From positions 62,001 through 126,000 of the forward strand of contig JABJJW010000004.1 in assembly GCA_018660685.1 (NCBI GenBank): a stretch of DNA of 64,000 nt, in the 5' to 3' direction. Positions within the stretch are counted from its first letter, which is position 1. Each line of letters opens with the position of its first letter. Both the position numbers and the translations under genes were made by a program. This document shows, piece by piece, positions 15,732 to 23,242 of the stretch. The notes under the pieces were generated by a model. The model worked only from the letters and a program-made list of their open reading frames with translations, ran no database searches and had not been told where the DNA came from. Source of the stretch: Flavobacteriales bacterium (GTDB lineage Bacteria; Bacteroidota; Bacteroidia; Flavobacteriales_G; Salibacteraceae).

Positions 15732-16034
15732 ATGAAATGGGATATTCAGACCGTTGGCTTTCACGCCAAGGATGAGTTGTTGGAAACGACAAAAGAGAGC
15801 GTAGAGAAATTAGAGAAGTATTATTCACCAATCATCGGAGCTGAAATATATCTGAAGCTGCAGTATGATGATCAAAAGGAGAATAAGAAAGTAGAGATCA
15901 AACTCAATATTCCTGGAGAAGACGTTTTTGGAGAAGACCAATCCGACACGTTCGAACACTCCCTGCATTCTGCTGTTGACAAAGTGAAACGACAGCTTGT
16001 CAAGAGAAAGGAGCTCAAACGAGCCCATAGGTAA
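15732..16034 (+). CDS. hpf: Ribosome hibernation promoting factor, short form (HPF/RaiA)
   Basis: A 100-residue protein of the HPF/YfiA family, which binds the 30S decoding region in stationary phase. The sequence has the typical beta-alpha-beta pattern (MKWDIQTVGFHAKDELLE, later ADKVKRQLVKRKEL-like basic C-terminal helix). It lacks the extra C-terminal dimerisation domain of long HPF, and its length suits the short form. ATG 15732 gives the family start; an upstream in-frame ATG at 15699 is less likely. It stands alone after the ABC transporter. Confidence 0.88.
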   Translation: MKWDIQTVGFHAKDELLETTKESVEKLEKYYSPIIGAEIYLKLQYDDQKENKKVEIKLNIPGEDVFGEDQSDTFEHSLHSAVDKVKRQLVKRKELKRAHR

Positions 16035-16089
16035 TTGGGAGTTTCTTAAACACATCAATGATCAAGAGCGCTCGCTAGCTGTAAAGGAG

Positions 16090-16800
16090 ATGGAAGAAAA
16101 AGAAAAACCAAGGCTTGCGAGGTTAACTGCCATTATCACCCAATTACAATCTAAACGGCTGATCACTGCAAAGCAACTCGCAGAGCGACATCATGTAAGT
16201 GTTCGAACTATTTATAGAGATATTCGGACACTCGAACACTCAGGGATTCCTCTGGTCACTGAAGACGGAAAAGGTTATTCTCTCATGGAGGGCTATCACC
16301 TGCCCCCCGTTCTGTTCACTGAAGAAGAGGCCAATGCGCTCATTACTGTGGAACAACTGGCCATCAAAAACAAGGATCAGTCGTTCAGTGAAAATGTCTC
16401 AAGCGCTGTCGAAAAAATAAAAGCAATTCTCCGGTATTCACAAAAAGGAAATGCCGATTTGTTGGCAGATAGAATCTACTTTGGAGGCAATGACAACGAG
16501 GAGAAGTCAAGTAACAACTTGATGCAAATTCAGTCTGCTATTATCCATTTTCAGGTATTAAAGATTGACTACCAATCTTCTGAGAAAAAGCGAACAACTC
16601 GAAATATCGAACCCTTTGCCGCCTACAGCATCCATGGAAATTTCCTCCTCGTTGCTTTTTGTAGGTTGAGAAAAGAATTCAGAGCCTTCCGAATAGACTT
16701 TATTGAATCCCTCACTCCTCAACAGGAATCATTCTCTCCTCACAACATGACCATCCAACAATATTTTGAAGAATATGTGCAAAACCGAAAACACCCCTGA
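16090..16800 (+). CDS. YafY-type HTH/WYL-domain transcriptional regulator
   Basis: A 236-residue regulator with an N-terminal DeoR-like winged helix-turn-helix (ITAKQLAERHHVSVRTIYRDIRTLEHSGIPL, described here in parts: LAERHHVSVRTIYRDIR is the recognition region). The C-terminal WYL domain (about residues 115-225; FAAYSIHGNFLLVAFC, FRAFRIDFI) replaces the canonical W-Y-L with a diverged set. WYL domains sense ligands or nucleic acids. The start at 16090 is the first Met before homology; an open frame continues upstream to 15997 inside hpf. It probably controls the DUF4345 gene 60 bp downstream. Confidence 0.85.
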   Translation: MEEKEKPRLARLTAIITQLQSKRLITAKQLAERHHVSVRTIYRDIRTLEHSGIPLVTEDGKGYSLMEGYHLPPVLFTEEEANALITVEQLAIKNKDQSFSENVSSAVEKIKAILRYSQKGNADLLADRIYFGGNDNEEKSSNNLMQIQSAIIHFQVLKIDYQSSEKKRTTRNIEPFAAYSIHGNFLLVAFCRLRKEFRAFRIDFIESLTPQQESFSPHNMTIQQYFEEYVQNRKHP

Positions 16801-16860
16801 CACACCTTTGTCACTACCTCACTTTAACATTGCACTATTAAAACTAAAAAGCTACAAAAA

Positions 16861-17247
16861 ATGGAAATCGTAAACATAGTCATACTCTCTATTTCAGGAC
16901 TGTTACTAACAACTGTAGGGGCATTAAGAATGATCAACCCCATAAAAAACTACGCAAAGAATTCGGGAATTGAAATTGACAATGAGGTGAGCTTACTCAA
17001 TGAAGTTTGTGGAGTGGGCTCATTAATGATGTTCAGTGGTATTACAATACTACTTGGCATTGTTCTACCATCGCTGACTCTCGCATCGTTTCTGGTGGCA
17101 ACACTTGTATTTATTGGATTTGCATTCGGAAGATTGCTCAGCATTCGTATGGATGGAAAACCAAATAAGATGATAATTCAGGGATGGGTTTCCGAGTTGG
17201 TTTTAGGCTCAGCCAACGTCTTTTGCCTCTATAACATGGTCTTCTAA
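16861..17247 (+). CDS. DUF4345-type small membrane protein
   Basis: A 128-residue protein with four predicted membrane helices (IVILSISGLLLTTVGALRM; MFSGITILLGIVLPSL; ASFLVATLVFIGFAFG; VLGSANVFCLYNM) and the conserved loop FGRLLSIRMDGKPNK. This layout is that of DUF4345 proteins, which are small four-helix proteins of unknown function often next to WYL or AraC regulators. Here the WYL regulator ends 60 bp upstream on the same strand. Confidence 0.75.
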   Translation: MEIVNIVILSISGLLLTTVGALRMINPIKNYAKNSGIEIDNEVSLLNEVCGVGSLMMFSGITILLGIVLPSLTLASFLVATLVFIGFAFGRLLSIRMDGKPNKMIIQGWVSELVLGSANVFCLYNMVF

Positions 17248-17320
17248 TAAAGCAGCTCTCGAAACAGGAAAAAGTTGGATTATTCCGTGGTCGTTTCACA
17301 GGATGGTCTTTGTTTGCTTT

Positions 17321-17569
17321 ATGCGCAACGTAGGACTGCTGGACCGAATTTTCCGCTTCACTCTTGGAACGTTTCTTTTATTGACAGGGCTCACGATATT
17401 GGATGGGGCTCACGGTAGTATCATTGGAATTATTGTTGCCATATGTAGTCTCCTGCCCTTCTATATGGCATTGACTGCGAGATGCTTTGTGTTCAACTGG
17501 TTTAAAATTCACTCGTTGAATAAAAAAGAGTGTGCGACACACGGCCGTCCGTATCAATCTGAAGTATAG
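17321..17569 (+). CDS. DUF2892 (YgaP-like transmembrane) protein
   Basis: An 82-residue protein starting MRNVGLLDRIFRFTLG, the hallmark of the DUF2892 domain (NxGxxDRxxR). Two membrane helices form a hairpin (LGTFLLLTGLTIL and IIGIIVAICSLLPFY), followed by AxRxCxxN (ALTARCFVFNWF), which in relatives sits near sulfur-transfer domains. No rhodanese domain is attached. It stands alone between two unrelated genes. ATG 17321 fits the family start better than 17303. Confidence 0.8.
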   Translation: MRNVGLLDRIFRFTLGTFLLLTGLTILDGAHGSIIGIIVAICSLLPFYMALTARCFVFNWFKIHSLNKKECATHGRPYQSEV

Positions 17570-17608
17570 GTGTTTTCTGTTTGAGTACTTTAGCCCAAAG
17601 CCTTTGCG

Positions 17609-18775
17609 ATGTTTTTAGTCCGCATTTTTCCGATCTTCTTTCTTTCGTTGGTTGTCACTTTATCATCTTGCAAAAAGGATGAACCTGATCCGATCGATGA
17701 AACAGAGGATGTGCTTGCCGCATTCAGTGGAGACCCAACCACCATCATCTTTGGGGAAAGCGTGCAGTTTACGGATGAATCAACAGGGAACCCTACGTCA
17801 TGGTCTTGGAGTTTCGACGGAGGCACCCCTTCAACTTCTGACGAACAAAACCCTGTAGTCATCTATGATGAACCAGGTGTATTCAATGTGACCCTGGTGG
17901 CGGGAAACGAAGGTTCGGATAATCAAGCTTTAAAGTCAAGTTATATTACCGTGGAAGCACCTTCGTTTTTCACGGACCATATGTTCGACACATATACGAG
18001 TACAACAGACATCATTTATGGGGTGGACGAGGATGAACACACATTGATTGTTTATGAGCCTGAAAATGATCCTCGTACGAATCGACCAGTGATCATTTTA
18101 GCTGGTGATGGTGGGTTTGCAGGAAGCGATTTGAGCTTACTAGAACCATTTGCCGAAGAAATGACCAAGTATGGTTTTGTTGTGGCGATTGCACATTACA
18201 GATCAGGACCTACAAATACGGCATTGGAATATCAAACCATGTTGATTAAAGGTATTCAAGACACGAAGGCAATGGTTCGGTACTTCCGAGAAAAGGCCCA
18301 TGTATGGGGAGTTGACTCCAATCTAATCTTCCGGGGCGGACATGGAACCGGTGCAATTATCAGTTTAAAAGCAACATACTGGGACGAAAATGAACTTGAC
18401 GCAAGCGCACTAACGTTAATCAATAGCCTCGGAGGCCTTGAAGGCGATCAAGGGCATTCCGGTCATTCTAGTGACGTTCTAGGCATTGTTTCTCTTGCAG
18501 GAGGTATGTATGAATCAATTCAAACGATTGACGCCACAGATGCCGGAATATTTGCAGTTCATGGGACTATGGATTTCGATGTGCCATACGACCATGATAC
18601 GACCGCTAATGGCGACGATTTCTACGGCTCTTTACCAATCACACTGAAAGCGGACTCGGTTGGTTTGCCAAATGAACTCTTCACAATTCAAAATGGCTTT
18701 CACGATGCACCGCGCGAAAAAGTCAAGGATTACTCTAGCCTTCTGGCTGAGTTTCTAAAGTCAATTGCCGAATAA
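17609..18775 (+). CDS. Lipoprotein with PKD and alpha/beta-hydrolase domains, nucleophile Ser missing
   Basis: A 388-residue lipoprotein: lipobox TLSSC with Cys21, a PKD domain at about residues 35-115 (WSWSFDGGTPS), then an alpha/beta-hydrolase domain (about 140-385; PVIILAGDGGFAGS as the oxyanion-loop region). In carboxylesterases of this type the elbow reads GGHSAGA. Here it reads GGHGTGA, so the nucleophile position is Gly246. The acid (HGTMDFDVPY) and His (NGFHDAP) segments are retained. It may be a non-catalytic binding protein, or it may use another residue. The -7-like TACTTTAG precedes the gene. Confidence 0.82.
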   Translation: MFLVRIFPIFFLSLVVTLSSCKKDEPDPIDETEDVLAAFSGDPTTIIFGESVQFTDESTGNPTSWSWSFDGGTPSTSDEQNPVVIYDEPGVFNVTLVAGNEGSDNQALKSSYITVEAPSFFTDHMFDTYTSTTDIIYGVDEDEHTLIVYEPENDPRTNRPVIILAGDGGFAGSDLSLLEPFAEEMTKYGFVVAIAHYRSGPTNTALEYQTMLIKGIQDTKAMVRYFREKAHVWGVDSNLIFRGGHGTGAIISLKATYWDENELDASALTLINSLGGLEGDQGHSGHSSDVLGIVSLAGGMYESIQTIDATDAGIFAVHGTMDFDVPYDHDTTANGDDFYGSLPITLKADSVGLPNELFTIQNGFHDAPREKVKDYSSLLAEFLKSIAE

Positions 18776-18842
18776 AGACGATCCACTTTCACTTCGTGAT
18801 CAATGCAATTCATATCCGCTCAAATCATGATTTTAGCCACTC

Positions 18843-18862
18843 ATGTAAAGTATTTTTTACAT
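18843..18862. promoter_or_regulatory. Perfect inverted repeat upstream of the membrane/HTH operon
   Basis: ATGTAAA-N6-TTTACAT is a perfect 7-bp inverted repeat with centre-to-centre spacing close to one helical turn, fitting a dimeric helix-turn-helix protein. It lies 55 bp before the first gene of the operon and overlaps the probable -33 region. A CATCTTTG box at 18878-18885 resembles the Bacteroidota -7 element. The most economical reading is an autoregulatory site for the HTH protein encoded at 19361-19588. Confidence 0.5.
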
Positions 18863-18917
18863 TGTGTATAGTTTTATCATCTTTGTGCCTAATATATTTA
18901 ACTAATAATACACGAAA

Positions 18918-19361
18918 ATGACTTATCATGAAAAGCGGAGTGTCGTCCACATACTCAGCACCATCGCGCTAACAGCCACCTATTTTCCCTATGTAATGAA
19001 CAATTACATGACTCCAGGAATGAATACTGAAGAAATTCTGATCTTCTGGTCGAAAGCAATTCTCGTCCTCATTCCTGTTACGATCGTCGTGAAAATTGTC
19101 ATCATGATTTTGTTCAGCATTTTCAACGCGGTTGCGACGAGGGAAGAACTTCCGAAAACCGATGAACGTGACAGACTGATCGAATTGAAGGCGTCGCGAA
19201 ACTCTCAAATTGCGTTTGGACTCGGATTCGTAGGCGCTCTTGCTGCCATTGCATTGGGCAATTCAGTGACCATAATGTTTGTCTTCATGATTGGTGCGGG
19301 AGTATTCTCTGAGGTCATTGATCACCTCTCCCAGATATACTACTACAGAAGCGGAGTGTAA
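18918..19361 (+). CDS. Four-helix membrane protein paired with an HTH regulator
   Basis: A 147-residue protein with four predicted membrane helices and a cytoplasmic loop containing the conserved stretch [16 protein letters not shown], typical of DUF2178-like proteins. Such proteins are regularly encoded with a small XRE-family regulator, as here: the stop overlaps the ATG of the HTH gene by one base. The family's function is unknown; sensing of membrane state with the HTH as output is an inference from the pairing. Transcription probably starts downstream of the inverted repeat at 18843-18862. Confidence 0.75.
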
Positions 19362-19588
19362 TGGCAAAGCATAAGATTAATAACGAAATACGGAAACTGC
19401 GGTTCCTCACAGATGAGATGACTCAGGAGGAATTAGCAGACAAGGTCGGCGTTACCCGACAGACAATTATGGCCATTGAAAAAGGAAAGTACAGTCCGTC
19501 CCTCGAACTTGCTTTTCGAATTTCTGAAGTTTTCGAGGTCCCCTTAAACGAGGTTTTCACTTACGGGGACACCAAATCCAGTAAATAG
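19361..19588 (+). CDS. Small XRE-family (YozG/YgzD-like) DNA-binding protein
   Basis: A 75-residue protein that is essentially one Cro/CI-type helix-turn-helix. The two helices are [20 protein letters not shown], followed by [17 protein letters not shown] and [10 protein letters not shown], an arrangement diagnostic of the YozG/YgzD group. It has no sensor domain, so activity is probably controlled through its membrane partner encoded one base upstream. It likely binds the palindrome before the operon. Confidence 0.88.
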
Positions 19589-19807
19589 ATGAGCCCCCAC
19601 ATTCTAAAAACCAATATTGGTGAGGCTCGAGAAGTGGCAGAAATTACTGACGCATTTCTCGCGCTTAAGTTCATCAGCAGCTGGTCGATCGATTTGGAAG
19701 ATGTAGACCGCGTGATGAAGATCCATACCCTCAAAGAAATCGATCAAAGCGAAATCATTGGATTTGTGCGAAACCTCGGTTATGAGTGTATGGATTTATC
19801 TGACTAG
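19589..19807 (+). CDS. Small ferredoxin-like-fold protein, unknown function
   Basis: A 72-residue protein whose ATG follows the HTH stop codon with no gap, so it belongs to the same operon. The beta-alpha-beta-like pattern (HILKTNIG, AREVAEITDAFLALKF, SSWSIDLED, RVMKIH, EIIGFVRNLGYECMDL) resembles heavy-metal-associated (HMA) domains, but the metal-binding CxxC loop is absent. It could bind another small ligand or a protein. Convergent with fabI, with a 4-bp gap. Confidence 0.65.
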   Translation: MSPHILKTNIGEAREVAEITDAFLALKFISSWSIDLEDVDRVMKIHTLKEIDQSEIIGFVRNLGYECMDLSD

Positions 19808-19811
19808 GAAT

Positions 19812-20612
19812 CTAAGACCATTTCTCCATGACCTTCGAAGAAATTCCCGTTGTGGAATACCCGCCATCGTGAAATAGATTCTGCATGGTCACGTATCTGC
19901 ACATGTCGCTGAAGAGCGTTACGCAGTAGTCTGCGCAAGAATCAGCATCTGCGTTTCCAAGAGGTGACATGTCTTCTGCAAAGTTGAAGAACTTGTCAAA
20001 ACCAGCGATTCCTGATCCTGCCGACGTCACTGTAGGCGACTGAGAAATCGTATTGACACGCACCTTGTTCCGTACTCCATAGTGATAACCAAAACTTCTT
20101 CCTATTGATTCGAGAGTCGCTTTTGCATCGGCCATGTCACTGTAGAAAGGATAGGCTTCTTGAGCAGCTATGTACGTAAGAGCCAAGATTGACCCCCAAT
20201 CTTTCATCGCATCCTGATCCCAAGCCACTTGCATCGTTTTGTGAAATGACAATGCTGAAATGTCCAATGTTTTTTGAAACCAGTCATGGTTTAGATCTGT
20301 GTAAGCTTTGTTCTTTCTAACGTTCGGCGACATGCCAATGGAATGCAGAACGAAGTCCAATTTTCCGCCAAGTTGCTCTTGTGCTTGAGTGAAGAGGTTG
20401 TTTAAATCCTCCATGCTAGTGGCATCTGCTGGAATTACAGTTGTTCCGCACTTCTCAGCCAATTCGTTGATCTTCCCCATTCGCAACGCAATTGGCGCGT
20501 TGGTCAGAACGAATTTGCCTCCTTGTTCATGAACTTTCTCTGCTACCTTCCAGGCAATTGATCTTTCATCCAGAGCTCCGAAAATGATTCCCTTTTTGTT
20601 CTCCAATAACAT
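19812..20612 (-). CDS. fabI: Enoyl-[acyl-carrier-protein] reductase FabI
   Basis: A 266-residue NADH-dependent enoyl-ACP reductase, which does the last step of each fatty acid elongation cycle. Motifs include the nucleotide-binding GALDERSIAW, the SIGMSP segment and the catalytic pair Tyr157-x6-Lys164 in the FabI spacing (YSDMADAK). The substrate-binding region after TISQSP is complete. It lies 38 bp downstream of recN on the same strand and may be co-transcribed with it. Confidence 0.95.
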   Translation of the reverse strand: MLLENKKGIIFGALDERSIAWKVAEKVHEQGGKFVLTNAPIALRMGKINELAEKCGTTVIPADATSMEDLNNLFTQAQEQLGGKLDFVLHSIGMSPNVRKNKAYTDLNHDWFQKTLDISALSFHKTMQVAWDQDAMKDWGSILALTYIAAQEAYPFYSDMADAKATLESIGRSFGYHYGVRNKVRVNTISQSPTVTSAGSGIAGFDKFFNFAEDMSPLGNADADSCADYCVTLFSDMCRYVTMQNLFHDGGYSTTGISSKVMEKWS

Positions 20613-20650
20613 ACTCCTGCTTGATTTAGTTAGATGGTAAATATAAAATC

Positions 20651-22309
20651 TTAGTTGAGACCGAGTAGCGATTTAGCGCTATCCAAAGCCGATTCATTCA
20701 GCTCATTTCCGCTGAACATACTCGCAATTTCTGAAACCCGCTCATCGCCAGTTAATTCTAATAGTCTCGAAATTGACTTATCCTGTTCTTCAATCTTTTT
20801 AATCTTAATATGATGTTCTCCTTTGGCAGCAACTCCGGGCAAATGTGTAACCGAAATCAATTGATAATTCGCGCTCAATTTCCGCATCAAAGTTCCAATC
20901 CGCTTAGCGACCTCCCCACTCACCCCAGTATCTATCTCATCAAATACCAGAGTAGGTGTTGCATCCGATTCGTTCAATACTCCTTTAATGGCCAAGGTGA
21001 GTCTCGCGACCTCACCACCGGAAGCCACTTTGTTAAGAGGAATGAGAAAATCGGATCCGTTCGCGTTAAACATAAACTGAACGGTATCCCATCCTCGTTG
21101 CCCCAACCGATCGCCTTTCTGAACATCGACGATGAGATGTGCTTTCGGCATTCCCAACTCTCTCACTTGTGACACAATCTTTTCACCAAATACGATACTA
21201 TGCTCCTTCCTTGAACTGTTAAGTTCATCTGCCAATTTGTTGCATGCTATTCGTAACTCGGCTTCCTTCGCTTCGAGAGCGCTCAGTTCTGAATCATACG
21301 ATTCTATTCCTTCAAGTTTGAGTTTGTATTCATCCTTCACTGACATAAGTTCCTCTACGCTTCCAACATTATGCTTATGCATCAATCGATTGAGGTCATC
21401 CAGAATGGTTCTTACCTCCTCCATCCGAGCTGGGTTTGCTTCTAAATTCGATGCTAGGCCGTCCGTTTCCATCTCTACATCATCCATTTCGATTAGAATC
21501 GACTGGAGCCTTGATTGGAGATCTTTGAATTGTTGGGATAGTTCAGCGATAGAATTCATTGAACTCACCGCAATTTTAATGGCTTGTTGTGCCCCTTGAT
21601 CCTCAGAACCCAGGGCATCTTTCACCGTGCTAAGTGCTCTCTTAATGTCTTCTGCGTGCTCGAGTTGATTGAACTCCTCTTCCGCTTTTAGTGCACCATC
21701 CCCGTCTAGAGAAGCCTCTTGAAGCTCATCAAACTGAAACTGGAAATAATCCTGATCCCTTCTTACTTGAGCAGCCGCGTCCTTCATTTGCTCGATCTGC
21801 TTGCCAAGGGATTGCAAAGAGCGATAACTCTGCTTATACAGATCCAGATTGTTGAGGTTTCCAGCGAACAGATCTAATTTTTCCACTTGATATTCCGTGG
21901 AAAGCAATTCCAAATTTTCAGATTGACCGTGAATGTCTACTAGCAAAACGCCAACCTGTTTTAATGTGGCGAGGCTCACTGGACTATCATTCACAAAAGC
22001 CCTGCTTCTACCTGTTCGAAGAAGTTCTCTTCTCAAAATCAGCTCGCTGAGATTGTCGAGGCCATTCTCTTCTAAGAAGTGTTCGACCAATTCCGAAAAA
22101 CTACTGAACGTCGCTTCGACAACACACTTCTCCTGGCCGTGCCTTATAGAGTCGTAATTGGCACGGCTTCCAAGAACAAGCGAAAATGCTTCGAGTAGGA
22201 TGGACTTTCCTGCACCTGTTTCCCCAGTAATAACCGTGAAGCCATTCTTGAATTCGAGCTCTGATTGCTCGATCAGCGCATAATTCCGTATGGATAACCT
22301 GCTCAACAT
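20651..22309 (-). CDS. recN: DNA repair protein RecN
   Basis: A 552-residue SMC-like ATPase for double-strand-break repair. The N-terminal part has NYALIEQSELEF and Walker A TGETGAGKS; the middle ~300 residues are coiled coil (EQLEHAEDIKRAL-like charged heptads); the C-terminal part has the signature ASGGEVARLTLAIK and Walker B TLVFDEIDTGVSGE. Start at ATG 22309 (MLSRLSIRNYAL), which matches RecN; the frame is open upstream to 22342 without homology. Divergent from the acyltransferase gene. Confidence 0.95.
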   Translation of the reverse strand: MLSRLSIRNYALIEQSELEFKNGFTVITGETGAGKSILLEAFSLVLGSRANYDSIRHGQEKCVVEATFSSFSELVEHFLEENGLDNLSELILRRELLRTGRSRAFVNDSPVSLATLKQVGVLLVDIHGQSENLELLSTEYQVEKLDLFAGNLNNLDLYKQSYRSLQSLGKQIEQMKDAAAQVRRDQDYFQFQFDELQEASLDGDGALKAEEEFNQLEHAEDIKRALSTVKDALGSEDQGAQQAIKIAVSSMNSIAELSQQFKDLQSRLQSILIEMDDVEMETDGLASNLEANPARMEEVRTILDDLNRLMHKHNVGSVEELMSVKDEYKLKLEGIESYDSELSALEAKEAELRIACNKLADELNSSRKEHSIVFGEKIVSQVRELGMPKAHLIVDVQKGDRLGQRGWDTVQFMFNANGSDFLIPLNKVASGGEVARLTLAIKGVLNESDATPTLVFDEIDTGVSGEVAKRIGTLMRKLSANYQLISVTHLPGVAAKGEHHIKIKKIEEQDKSISRLLELTGDERVSEIASMFSGNELNESALDSAKSLLGLN

Positions 22310-22360
22310 TGTGGTTAACAAAGCTAAGTTTAGCGTTATCATTTTGCTGTACTGGAAGAA

Positions 22361-22368
22361 TATTTTTG
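22361..22368 (+). promoter_or_regulatory. Candidate -7 box of the acyltransferase gene
   Basis: TATTTTTG matches TAnnTTTG exactly, 10 bp before the ATG at 22379. A TTTTG at 22342-22346 could serve as the -33 element, although the 14-bp gap is shorter than usual. Confidence 0.4.
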
Positions 22369-22378
22369 CACAATCTTT

Positions 22379-23242
22379 ATGACCATCCTACTACTCCTTT
22401 TCTGGATTCTTTCGAAACTACCAACTCGGGTCCTATATTTTATCAGCGACTTAATTGCCTTTGTGCTGCATACCGTTGTCAAGTACCGTCGCGATGTGGT
22501 AGAGGAGAACTTGAAGTATGCATTTCCTGAAAAAAGTGAATTAGAAAGGAAGGCCATTTCCAAAGAGTTTTACGTCTCGCTTTCAGATCAAATATTGGAG
22601 ACGGTTAAACTTCAGAGCATTGGCGCAGACGAATTGTTGTATCGCTGCCAATTTGTGAATCCTGAAGTGCTCCAAAAGTTTGACGACAACAATGAAAATG
22701 TAATTGTCATGATGGGTCATTCAGGAAACTGGGAATGGTGCGGTGCTGCAACTGAACTTCAGTATGACTTCAAGGTCCTACCGGTATACAGAAGAGTCAA
22801 GAATCGAGTCATCAACCAATATTTCTACCGACTGAGGTCTCGATTTGATTCAAAACCCATTCTCGACAAGGTTGCATTTCAAGCCATTGGCAATGTTAAA
22901 GAGCCGCATGCCGTGGCTTTACTTGCGGATCAAACACCGTCAGCAAGAAAAGGGTGGTGGTTAGACTTCCTAAATCAAAGAACTCCATTTTATCGTGGAG
23001 CGGAAGTGCTGTCGAATCGGCTGAAATATGGCGTTGTTTTCGCCCACATCCGTCATCCGAAAAGAGGGGCGTACGAGATCGTGTTCGAGGAATACAAAGG
23101 AGATGCATCGGAGAGATTTGCACTGACAAAAGCTTTTGTCGAATTTCTTGAGAAGGAAATTGTGCTTCATCCTGCCAACTGGCTTTGGTCACATAAGCGA
23201 TGGAAGCATCAGCCAAACTCGAACAACATAATAATCGACTAG
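22379..23242 (+). CDS. Lysophospholipid/lipid A acyltransferase (LpxL/HtrB family)
   Basis: A 287-residue inner-membrane acyltransferase with one N-terminal membrane helix (LLLLFWILSKLPTRVLYF) and the family pattern HSGNWE (HxxxxE catalytic dyad) near residue 118. Further motifs are VYRRVKNRVINQ and LLADQTPSARKGWW, and a C-terminal WLWSHKRWKH segment. Such enzymes add secondary acyl chains to lipid A in the Gram-negative inner membrane; in Bacteroidota some make ornithine- or amino-lipids, so the acceptor is not certain. The 3' end overlaps the convergent DUF4294 gene by 4 bp. Confidence 0.9.
   Translation: MTILLLLFWILSKLPTRVLYFISDLIAFVLHTVVKYRRDVVEENLKYAFPEKSELERKAISKEFYVSLSDQILETVKLQSIGADELLYRCQFVNPEVLQKFDDNNENVIVMMGHSGNWEWCGAATELQYDFKVLPVYRRVKNRVINQYFYRLRSRFDSKPILDKVAFQAIGNVKEPHAVALLADQTPSARKGWWLDFLNQRTPFYRGAEVLSNRLKYGVVFAHIRHPKRGAYEIVFEEYKGDASERFALTKAFVEFLEKEIVLHPANWLWSHKRWKHQPNSNNIIID

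Follow-up and report, generated by a model that had tools for sequence, protein, structure and literature searches.

A 21-bp-phased array of putative operators upstream of a membrane protein/Xre regulator operon in a Flavobacteriales genome

We analysed a 64-kb stretch of a Flavobacteriales genome (hereafter the window) and found that the inverted repeat preceding a small membrane protein/HTH operon is the first of three dyads, O1 to O3, whose centres are spaced by 21 bp. Positions 18843-18904 most likely constitute an autoregulatory operator array bound by dimers of the 75-residue HTH protein encoded in the operon, with its membrane partner as a probable antirepressor. Genes for Xre repressors are repeatedly found in genomes paired with one for a small membrane protein, in most cases with no known function; the 2009 survey of Makarova et al., in its accessible part, set such pairs aside (PMC2701414). 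A phased array of this kind predicts the binding sequence of such a repressor, and the targets of the pair can then be listed by sequence search; here the pair apparently targets only itself.

Results

The inverted repeat and the genes behind it

The perfect inverted repeat ATGTAAA-N6-TTTACAT that an earlier note had reported at 18843-18862 is present there exactly, with 7-bp perfect arms around GTATTT (ATGTAAAGTATTTTTTACAT), and the distance of 55 bp that it had given to the operon agrees with the 55 bases between the end of O1 and the ATG at 18918. O1 is the single exact match within the window, and dinucleotide shuffling of the 200 bp upstream produced no equal match in 2000 trials. A search of the 2.58-Mb genome for the motif, which had been proposed as a check, returned one exact match, while the reversed control pattern gave none. 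With up to three mismatches allowed, 10 copies were counted in the window versus 4.7 expected, a number reached in 2 of 100 shuffles. With up to two mismatches, the genome holds 16 copies and the reversed control pattern likewise 16, and the search for a regulon with this degenerate single motif thus found no genome-wide excess over the control. Because of this equality a degenerate single O1-like site carries little meaning, and the uniqueness of the locus therefore rests on the exact site and its neighbours.

The open reading frames of 147 and 75 codons are as previously described. The coordinates of all features are collected in Table 1.

Table 1 Features of the putative operator array and of the operon in the window
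Feature	Position	Strand	Basis and remarks
O1	18843-18862	no strand	exact repeat; matrix rank 1 in the window; in 18/18 related operons with 0-4 mismatches
-33 element, TTTT (putative)	18855-18858	+	inside the right arm of O1; sequence and assumed promoter consensus
O2 (putative)	18864-18883	no strand	weak dyad 21 bp 3' of O1, between -33 and -7
-7 element, CATCTTTG (putative)	18878-18885	+	TAnnTTTG-like; overlaps O2; sequence and assumed promoter consensus
O3 (putative)	18885-18904	no strand	dyad 42 bp 3' of O1; likely transcription start and leader
Membrane protein gene, 147 residues	18918-19361	+	open reading frame; four predicted helices; conserved D-E-x-D loop
Xre/HTH_3 regulator gene, 75 residues, CylR2-like	19361-19588	+	start overlaps the stop of the membrane gene
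Third gene, 72 residues	19589-19807	+	HMA/ferredoxin-like fold, from model; directly after the HTH stop

The 147-residue protein is probably located in the membrane, as judged from its sequence and from an AlphaFold2 model with four helices (pLDDT 88.6). Asp82, Glu83 and Asp85 are invariant in 12 of 12 proteins of an alignment of relatives (alignment A2). No fold match was found in the PDB at E <= 0.001, and no Pfam family, toxin families included, scored above its cut-off for the window's membrane protein; for two of its relatives a sub-threshold DUF2178 was the only Pfam match. The 75-residue protein matches Pfam HTH_3 with 56.1 bits versus a gathering score of 23 (E 3.8e-15), and its nearest solved relatives are 9k3w, of the PbsX family (E 4.5e-12), and CylR2, 1utx (E 9.1e-10, residues 11-68). 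Among the NCBIfam models for it, 25 of 26 were listed and each of these fell below its cut-off. The YozG-type affiliation assumed in the earlier note, after a B. subtilis protein with a YoaS/DUF2975 partner, is a candidate one. The genome encodes no second protein of this kind; the next matches have E about 1e-3.

The absence of a Pfam toxin match bears on the proposal of a toxin-antitoxin unit in which the membrane protein would be the toxin and the array the autoregulatory operator of the antitoxin. Xre proteins do serve as antitoxins in known systems, and a reply to a reviewer in the accessible part of Makarova et al. allows that membrane-protein pairs may be novel toxin-antitoxin systems (PMC2701414). 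The same portion of that paper, however, lists conserved Xre/membrane-protein pairs (YoaS-like and others) and excludes three from its toxin-antitoxin candidates, because its authors knew of no type II system that has a membrane component. We consider this proposal improbable, and it bears on the role of the partner rather than on the operator.

The model of the third, 72-residue protein has a pLDDT of 89.0; its top PDB matches are HMA domains of copper chaperones (best E 3.3e-3, none at E <= 0.001), and the protein carries no CxxC motif. Homologues lie downstream of the HTH gene in five related operons, within about 200 bp in four (L003, L004, L050 and L051) and at about 1.1 kb in L035. In Niallia (L055), the next gene after the pair encodes a DUF4386 protein (E 5.4e-51). 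Immediately upstream of the window's operon lies a PKD-domain and BD-FAE esterase-like gene (17609-18775).

Conservation of the repeat upstream of related operons

Conservation upstream of orthologues was the point on which the earlier note had made its reading depend, and each of the 18 related operons scored carries the 20-mer with at most four mismatches. For this test, the best match to ATGTAAA-N6-TTTACAT was taken within 200 bp upstream of each operon, the 18 operons ranging from the window's own family to a metagenome-assembled genome (MAG) of Spirochaetota and two Bacillota. Over the 14 fixed positions, three loci have no mismatch, four have one, seven have two, three have three and one has four. 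The sites end 42-80 nt upstream of the start codon. Taken singly, 17 of the 18 operons are significant, with at most 51 of 2000 shuffles matching as well (>97% beaten); L009, the locus with four mismatches, is non-significant alone (702 of 2000 shuffles as good). L003 carries the window's 20-mer exactly, in reverse complement.

Across 17 non-redundant loci, which include the window and in which L015 and L017 are merged with L014, the arms of O1 are 83% pairwise identical versus 27% for the upstream flank. The conservation does not stem from recent copying of the region, since the membrane proteins aligned in A2 (12 of 19 proteins) share only 27-45% identity with that of the window. Downstream of the repeat, identity is 53% from +20 to +44 and 41% from +45 to +74, and some of this may reflect a general conservation of promoter or leader. 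L048 (G697), with a partial membrane-gene match that includes a stop, was omitted from all motif counts, and the start codon used for L010 lies 3 bases inside the open reading frame. Several handles refer to the same place, namely L016/L047, L006/L002, L042/L012, L043/L013, L044-L046/L014, L017, L015, L049/L008, L052/L007 and L053/L009.

Three dyads in a 21-bp register

O2 and O3, two weaker dyads in register with O1, had gone unnoticed earlier. In an ungapped alignment of the 17 loci anchored on O1, forward half-sites fall at +1, +22 and +43 and reverse half-sites at +13, +34 and +55; O2 and O3 are unselected in this alignment, because the loci were picked by O1 alone. The mean dyad score, out of 14, is 12.47 at offset 0, 9.76 at +21, 8.18 at +42 and 6.00 at +63. 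When the downstream stretch was shuffled 2000 times by mononucleotides, the maximum over all offsets tried was 6.47, and 1000 sets of 17 control blocks, taken from the window and the rest of its genome and anchored in the same manner, gave maxima of 5.24 at +21 and 5.18 at +42. Both core bases, G and C, are retained in 17 of 17 loci at offset 0, 16 at +21, 15 at +42 and 4 at +63, and in at most 4 of 17 in the shuffles.

A symmetrised matrix built from the O1 sites of the 16 other loci, with the window's own site excluded, ranks O1 first in the window (28.6 bits) and O3 second (8.7 bits). O2 of the window is weak, with a score of about 0 and rank 41 of about 64,000 positions. The three-site score is 37.3 at 18843, and the best other non-overlapping place in the window reaches -15.8. 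With locus-excluded matrices, for which the window served as background at every locus and A/T-rich upstream regions are consequently favoured, O2 scores among the top 0.2% of window positions in all 17 loci, and O3 is within the top 0.25% in 15 of them, being absent in L014 and L047; a fourth site at +63 is within the top 0.2% in five loci (L005, L008, L012, L050 and L051). On this evidence the earlier proposal of an operator for the membrane/HTH operon holds up, with the 18 related operons behind it, but is incomplete, O1 being the first of three putative operators. The reading as a single site was dropped, since the phasing analysis places the further dyads at exactly +21 and +42.

Could the array belong to another, global regulator with further target genes? 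The half-site TGTAAA is simple and occurs in the 16 genomic near-matches mentioned above, a count that nevertheless equals that of the control pattern. Moreover, no partners at +/-21 or +/-42 were found at 14 scanned sites of the 15 other two-mismatch sites in the genome, and the array travels with the gene pair in the window's phylum, in Spirochaetota and in Bacillota. A global regulator thus seems improbable to us, slightly more so than a toxin-antitoxin unit. The phased repetition of dyads also speaks against an RNA hairpin or attenuator in place of a DNA operator. An inverted repeat is able to form a hairpin; O1, however, lies upstream of the putative -7 box and would be untranscribed from that promoter, and no Rfam match was obtained in 18500-20000. 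An RNA element is by far the least probable of the alternatives weighed here.

Overlap of the array with the putative promoter

The promoter consensus of Bacteroidota is TTTG-N19-TAnnTTTG. The earlier suggestion that the repeat overlaps the -33 region is plausible, in that the TTTT in the right arm of O1 is followed after 19 bases by CATCTTTG, and we take these two to be the -33 and -7 elements on the strength of that consensus. A sigma-70 scan of 18700-20000 found no promoter on the + strand. The array would therefore be likely to cover the -33/-7 promoter and the start. As judged by eye, many other loci have TTTG, TTTACA or TTGACA at the position of the window's TTTT, and in most a -7/-10-like element containing TA starts at about +35 to +37. 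In L014, L015 and L017, a possible sigma-70-like promoter is seen by eye farther upstream, and the overlap of operator and promoter may differ there.

An alternative is that the conservation reflects a promoter only, with TTTACA/TTGACA as the -33/-35 element and the left arm arising by chance or as an UP-like A/T-rich stretch. The right arm does read TTGACA or TTTACA in many loci, with a TA 15-17 bases behind it in most, and the conservation of O2 may be partly that of the promoter, the right arm of O2 overlapping the -7 box. Yet the left arm is equally conserved, G+2, T+3 and A+6 each being present in 17 of 17 loci, and four columns outside the assumed promoter boxes, G+23, G+44, A+58 and C+59, are each retained in 16 of 17 (P 1e-7 to 1e-11). 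In addition, the promoter appears by eye to be of the Bacteroidota type in some loci and of the sigma-70 type in others, while the 20-mer stays constant. Conservation of a promoter alone is accordingly very unlikely, a little less credible than a global regulator.

Distribution of the gene pair

The HTH gene directly follows the membrane gene in all 18 related operons. The membrane gene itself is patchily distributed: in samples that overlap, use different cut-offs and count the window's genome where it was sampled, it occurs in 3 of 35 genomes of the family, 7 of 395 of the class and 9 of 395 of the phylum, and further in 2 of 245 and 5 of 146 (two class samples) and in 3 of 169 and 2 of 12 (two orders). 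None of 12 other genomes of the same genus carries it. Eight genomes of the class sample have a close match to the HTH protein, and seven of these are the seven with the membrane gene. In L048, the HTH gene is retained beside the partial membrane-gene match with its internal stop.

The sole match to the membrane gene in a collection of genome contigs is the MAG of Spirochaeta sp. UBA5339 (L005), and two matches lie on Bacillota megaplasmids, of Paenibacillus cellulosilyticus and Niallia taxi. At 45%, the L005 membrane protein shows the highest identity to that of the window seen among the relatives. This identity suggests horizontal transfer of the unit together with its putative operator, contamination of the MAG being a possible source of the match. 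An origin in phages or viruses was considered and rejected: a phage collection gave zero matches, and among 566 stretches of IMG/VR matching one peptide pattern, none encodes a relative.

Proposed mechanism and relation to known systems

Judged from the DNA, the inverted repeat is very probably the gene pair's own on/off switch, and the simplest reading of the array is negative autoregulation. We propose that dimers of the 75-residue HTH protein would bind O1, O2 and O3. With centres 21 bp, i.e. two helical turns, apart, the dimers would lie on one face of the DNA and could contact one another. This geometry is consistent with a strong O1 that acts as the nucleating site, from which the weaker O2 and O3 would be filled cooperatively. 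Since the three sites together cover -33, -7 and the transcription start, their occupancy would shut off the operon of the membrane, HTH and 72-residue proteins. The four-helix protein with its invariant acidic residues would most likely be both sensor and antirepressor, by analogy with CylR1; it would sense a condition of the membrane or envelope and release or sequester the HTH protein, as proposed for CylR1/CylR2. The promoter of the array would then be a ready reporter for finding the signal read by the membrane partner.

Restriction-modification controller proteins also use tandem operators over their own promoter, and the HTH protein might, like these, be an activator-repressor, with O1 aiding RNA polymerase and O2/O3 blocking it in a bistable or pulse switch. 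O1, the strongest site, lies across the promoter's upstream edge, and the weaker O2 and O3 lie over -7/+1, as such a scheme would have it. The right arm of O1, however, holds the -33 element, and a dimer bound there should mask it. The window's system differs from the controllers in having a membrane protein as partner. We regard this scheme as unlikely, although it has a better chance than any other alternative to plain autorepression.

The arrangement of a small Xre-type HTH protein beside a small suspected membrane protein is shared with CylR1/CylR2 of Enterococcus faecalis, and the window's HTH protein is homologous to CylR2 by sequence. CylR2 controls a lanthipeptide operon, whereas none is seen at the window locus. 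Lanthipeptide synthetases are about 900 aa in size; no open reading frame of that size was found in 16000-22500, where the longest has 563 aa and the neighbours are the PKD/BD-FAE and HMA-like genes. According to the accessible part of PMC3709268, CylR2 sits on the promoter in the inactive state and induction needs CylR1 by a mechanism that is not understood; CylR1 has three predicted transmembrane helices in that account, as opposed to the four modelled for the window protein. The cytolysin system involves no phosphorylation relay, as stated in the available portion of PMC11343131. The pairs listed in PMC2701414 are of the same type as that of the window, and neither operator nor mechanism is given in the accessible part of that paper. 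Our literature search found no operator for an Xre/membrane pair and no 21-bp array, which is weak evidence of absence given that most subscription papers were beyond reach. The class of gene pair is already known, and the phased operator array appears, within this limited coverage, to be the new part.

The SinR operator is GTTCT-N6-AGAAC, with a G-N14-C spacing equal to that of the window's array. CylR2, SinR, DdrO and ImmR have one common dimer arrangement, as described in the accessible part of PMC8960796; the half-site sequence of SinR, ImmR and DdrO differs from the window's, and a three-fold 21-bp array is not described in that part.

Phasing in other Xre pairs

One may speculate, with rather less than even confidence, that dyads every 21 bp (or 42 bp, with one skipped) serve all phosphorelay-free Xre/membrane switches as a common operator code across bacterial phyla and possibly in archaea, and that the regulator forms a short cooperative filament dismantled by its membrane partner. 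We inspected an extension set of 8 plasmid regions out of 115 matched records, plus two extra loci; L056 (Acaryochloris), in which the membrane partner was not recognised, was left unscored. The occurrence of the same phasing in these pairs is suggestive only. In a model-free test of 8 single loci over lags 15-49, L062 had lag 21 as its sole best, and L060 and L061 had it tied for best with three other lags; in L041, L057, L058, L059 and L063 it was not best. Lag 42 ranked with the best in L057 and L060.

In the consensus scan, Mesobacillus (L060) and Priestia (L061) each showed two dyads with a spacing of 21 bp, and L041 and the second L012 pair each showed two with a spacing of 42 bp; one dyad was seen in L057 and none convincing in L063 (lacticin 3147 plasmid pMRC01), with further weaker matches in several regions of the set. 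Two dyads with a sequence other than the consensus lie 21 bp apart in Halobacterium (L062), and dyad pairs are 45 bp apart in L058 (Rhodococcus) and 44 bp apart in L059 (Carnobacterium). The partner gene was translated in L057, L058, L060, L041 and L012, and taken from annotation as 'hypothetical' in L059, L061 and L063 and as 'transposase' in L062.

Several of these loci have features of their own. A second Xre/membrane family, with a DELQQKIQL motif, is present in L041 (G308, 1097-1698) and on the minus strand of L012 near 809-624; its two dyads 42 bp apart lie upstream and have the same half-site, and in G600 (L012) both Xre/membrane families are adjacent and divergent. In Priestia megaterium (L061) and Mesobacillus foraminis (L060), the two dyads sit before the HTH gene, which is followed by a hypothetical protein, membrane-like in L060, and then by a 'small multi-drug export protein'. 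Upstream of 1495 in Carnobacterium viridans (L059), the two palindromic sites, with TGTAAAGATATCTTTAC in common, precede an HTH/hypothetical-protein pair, and a second such pair lies about 250 bp further on. In Halobacterium salinarum PHS1 (L062), an 'ISNCY family transposase ISH7A' (1096-1491), possibly misannotated, takes the place of the HTH partner.
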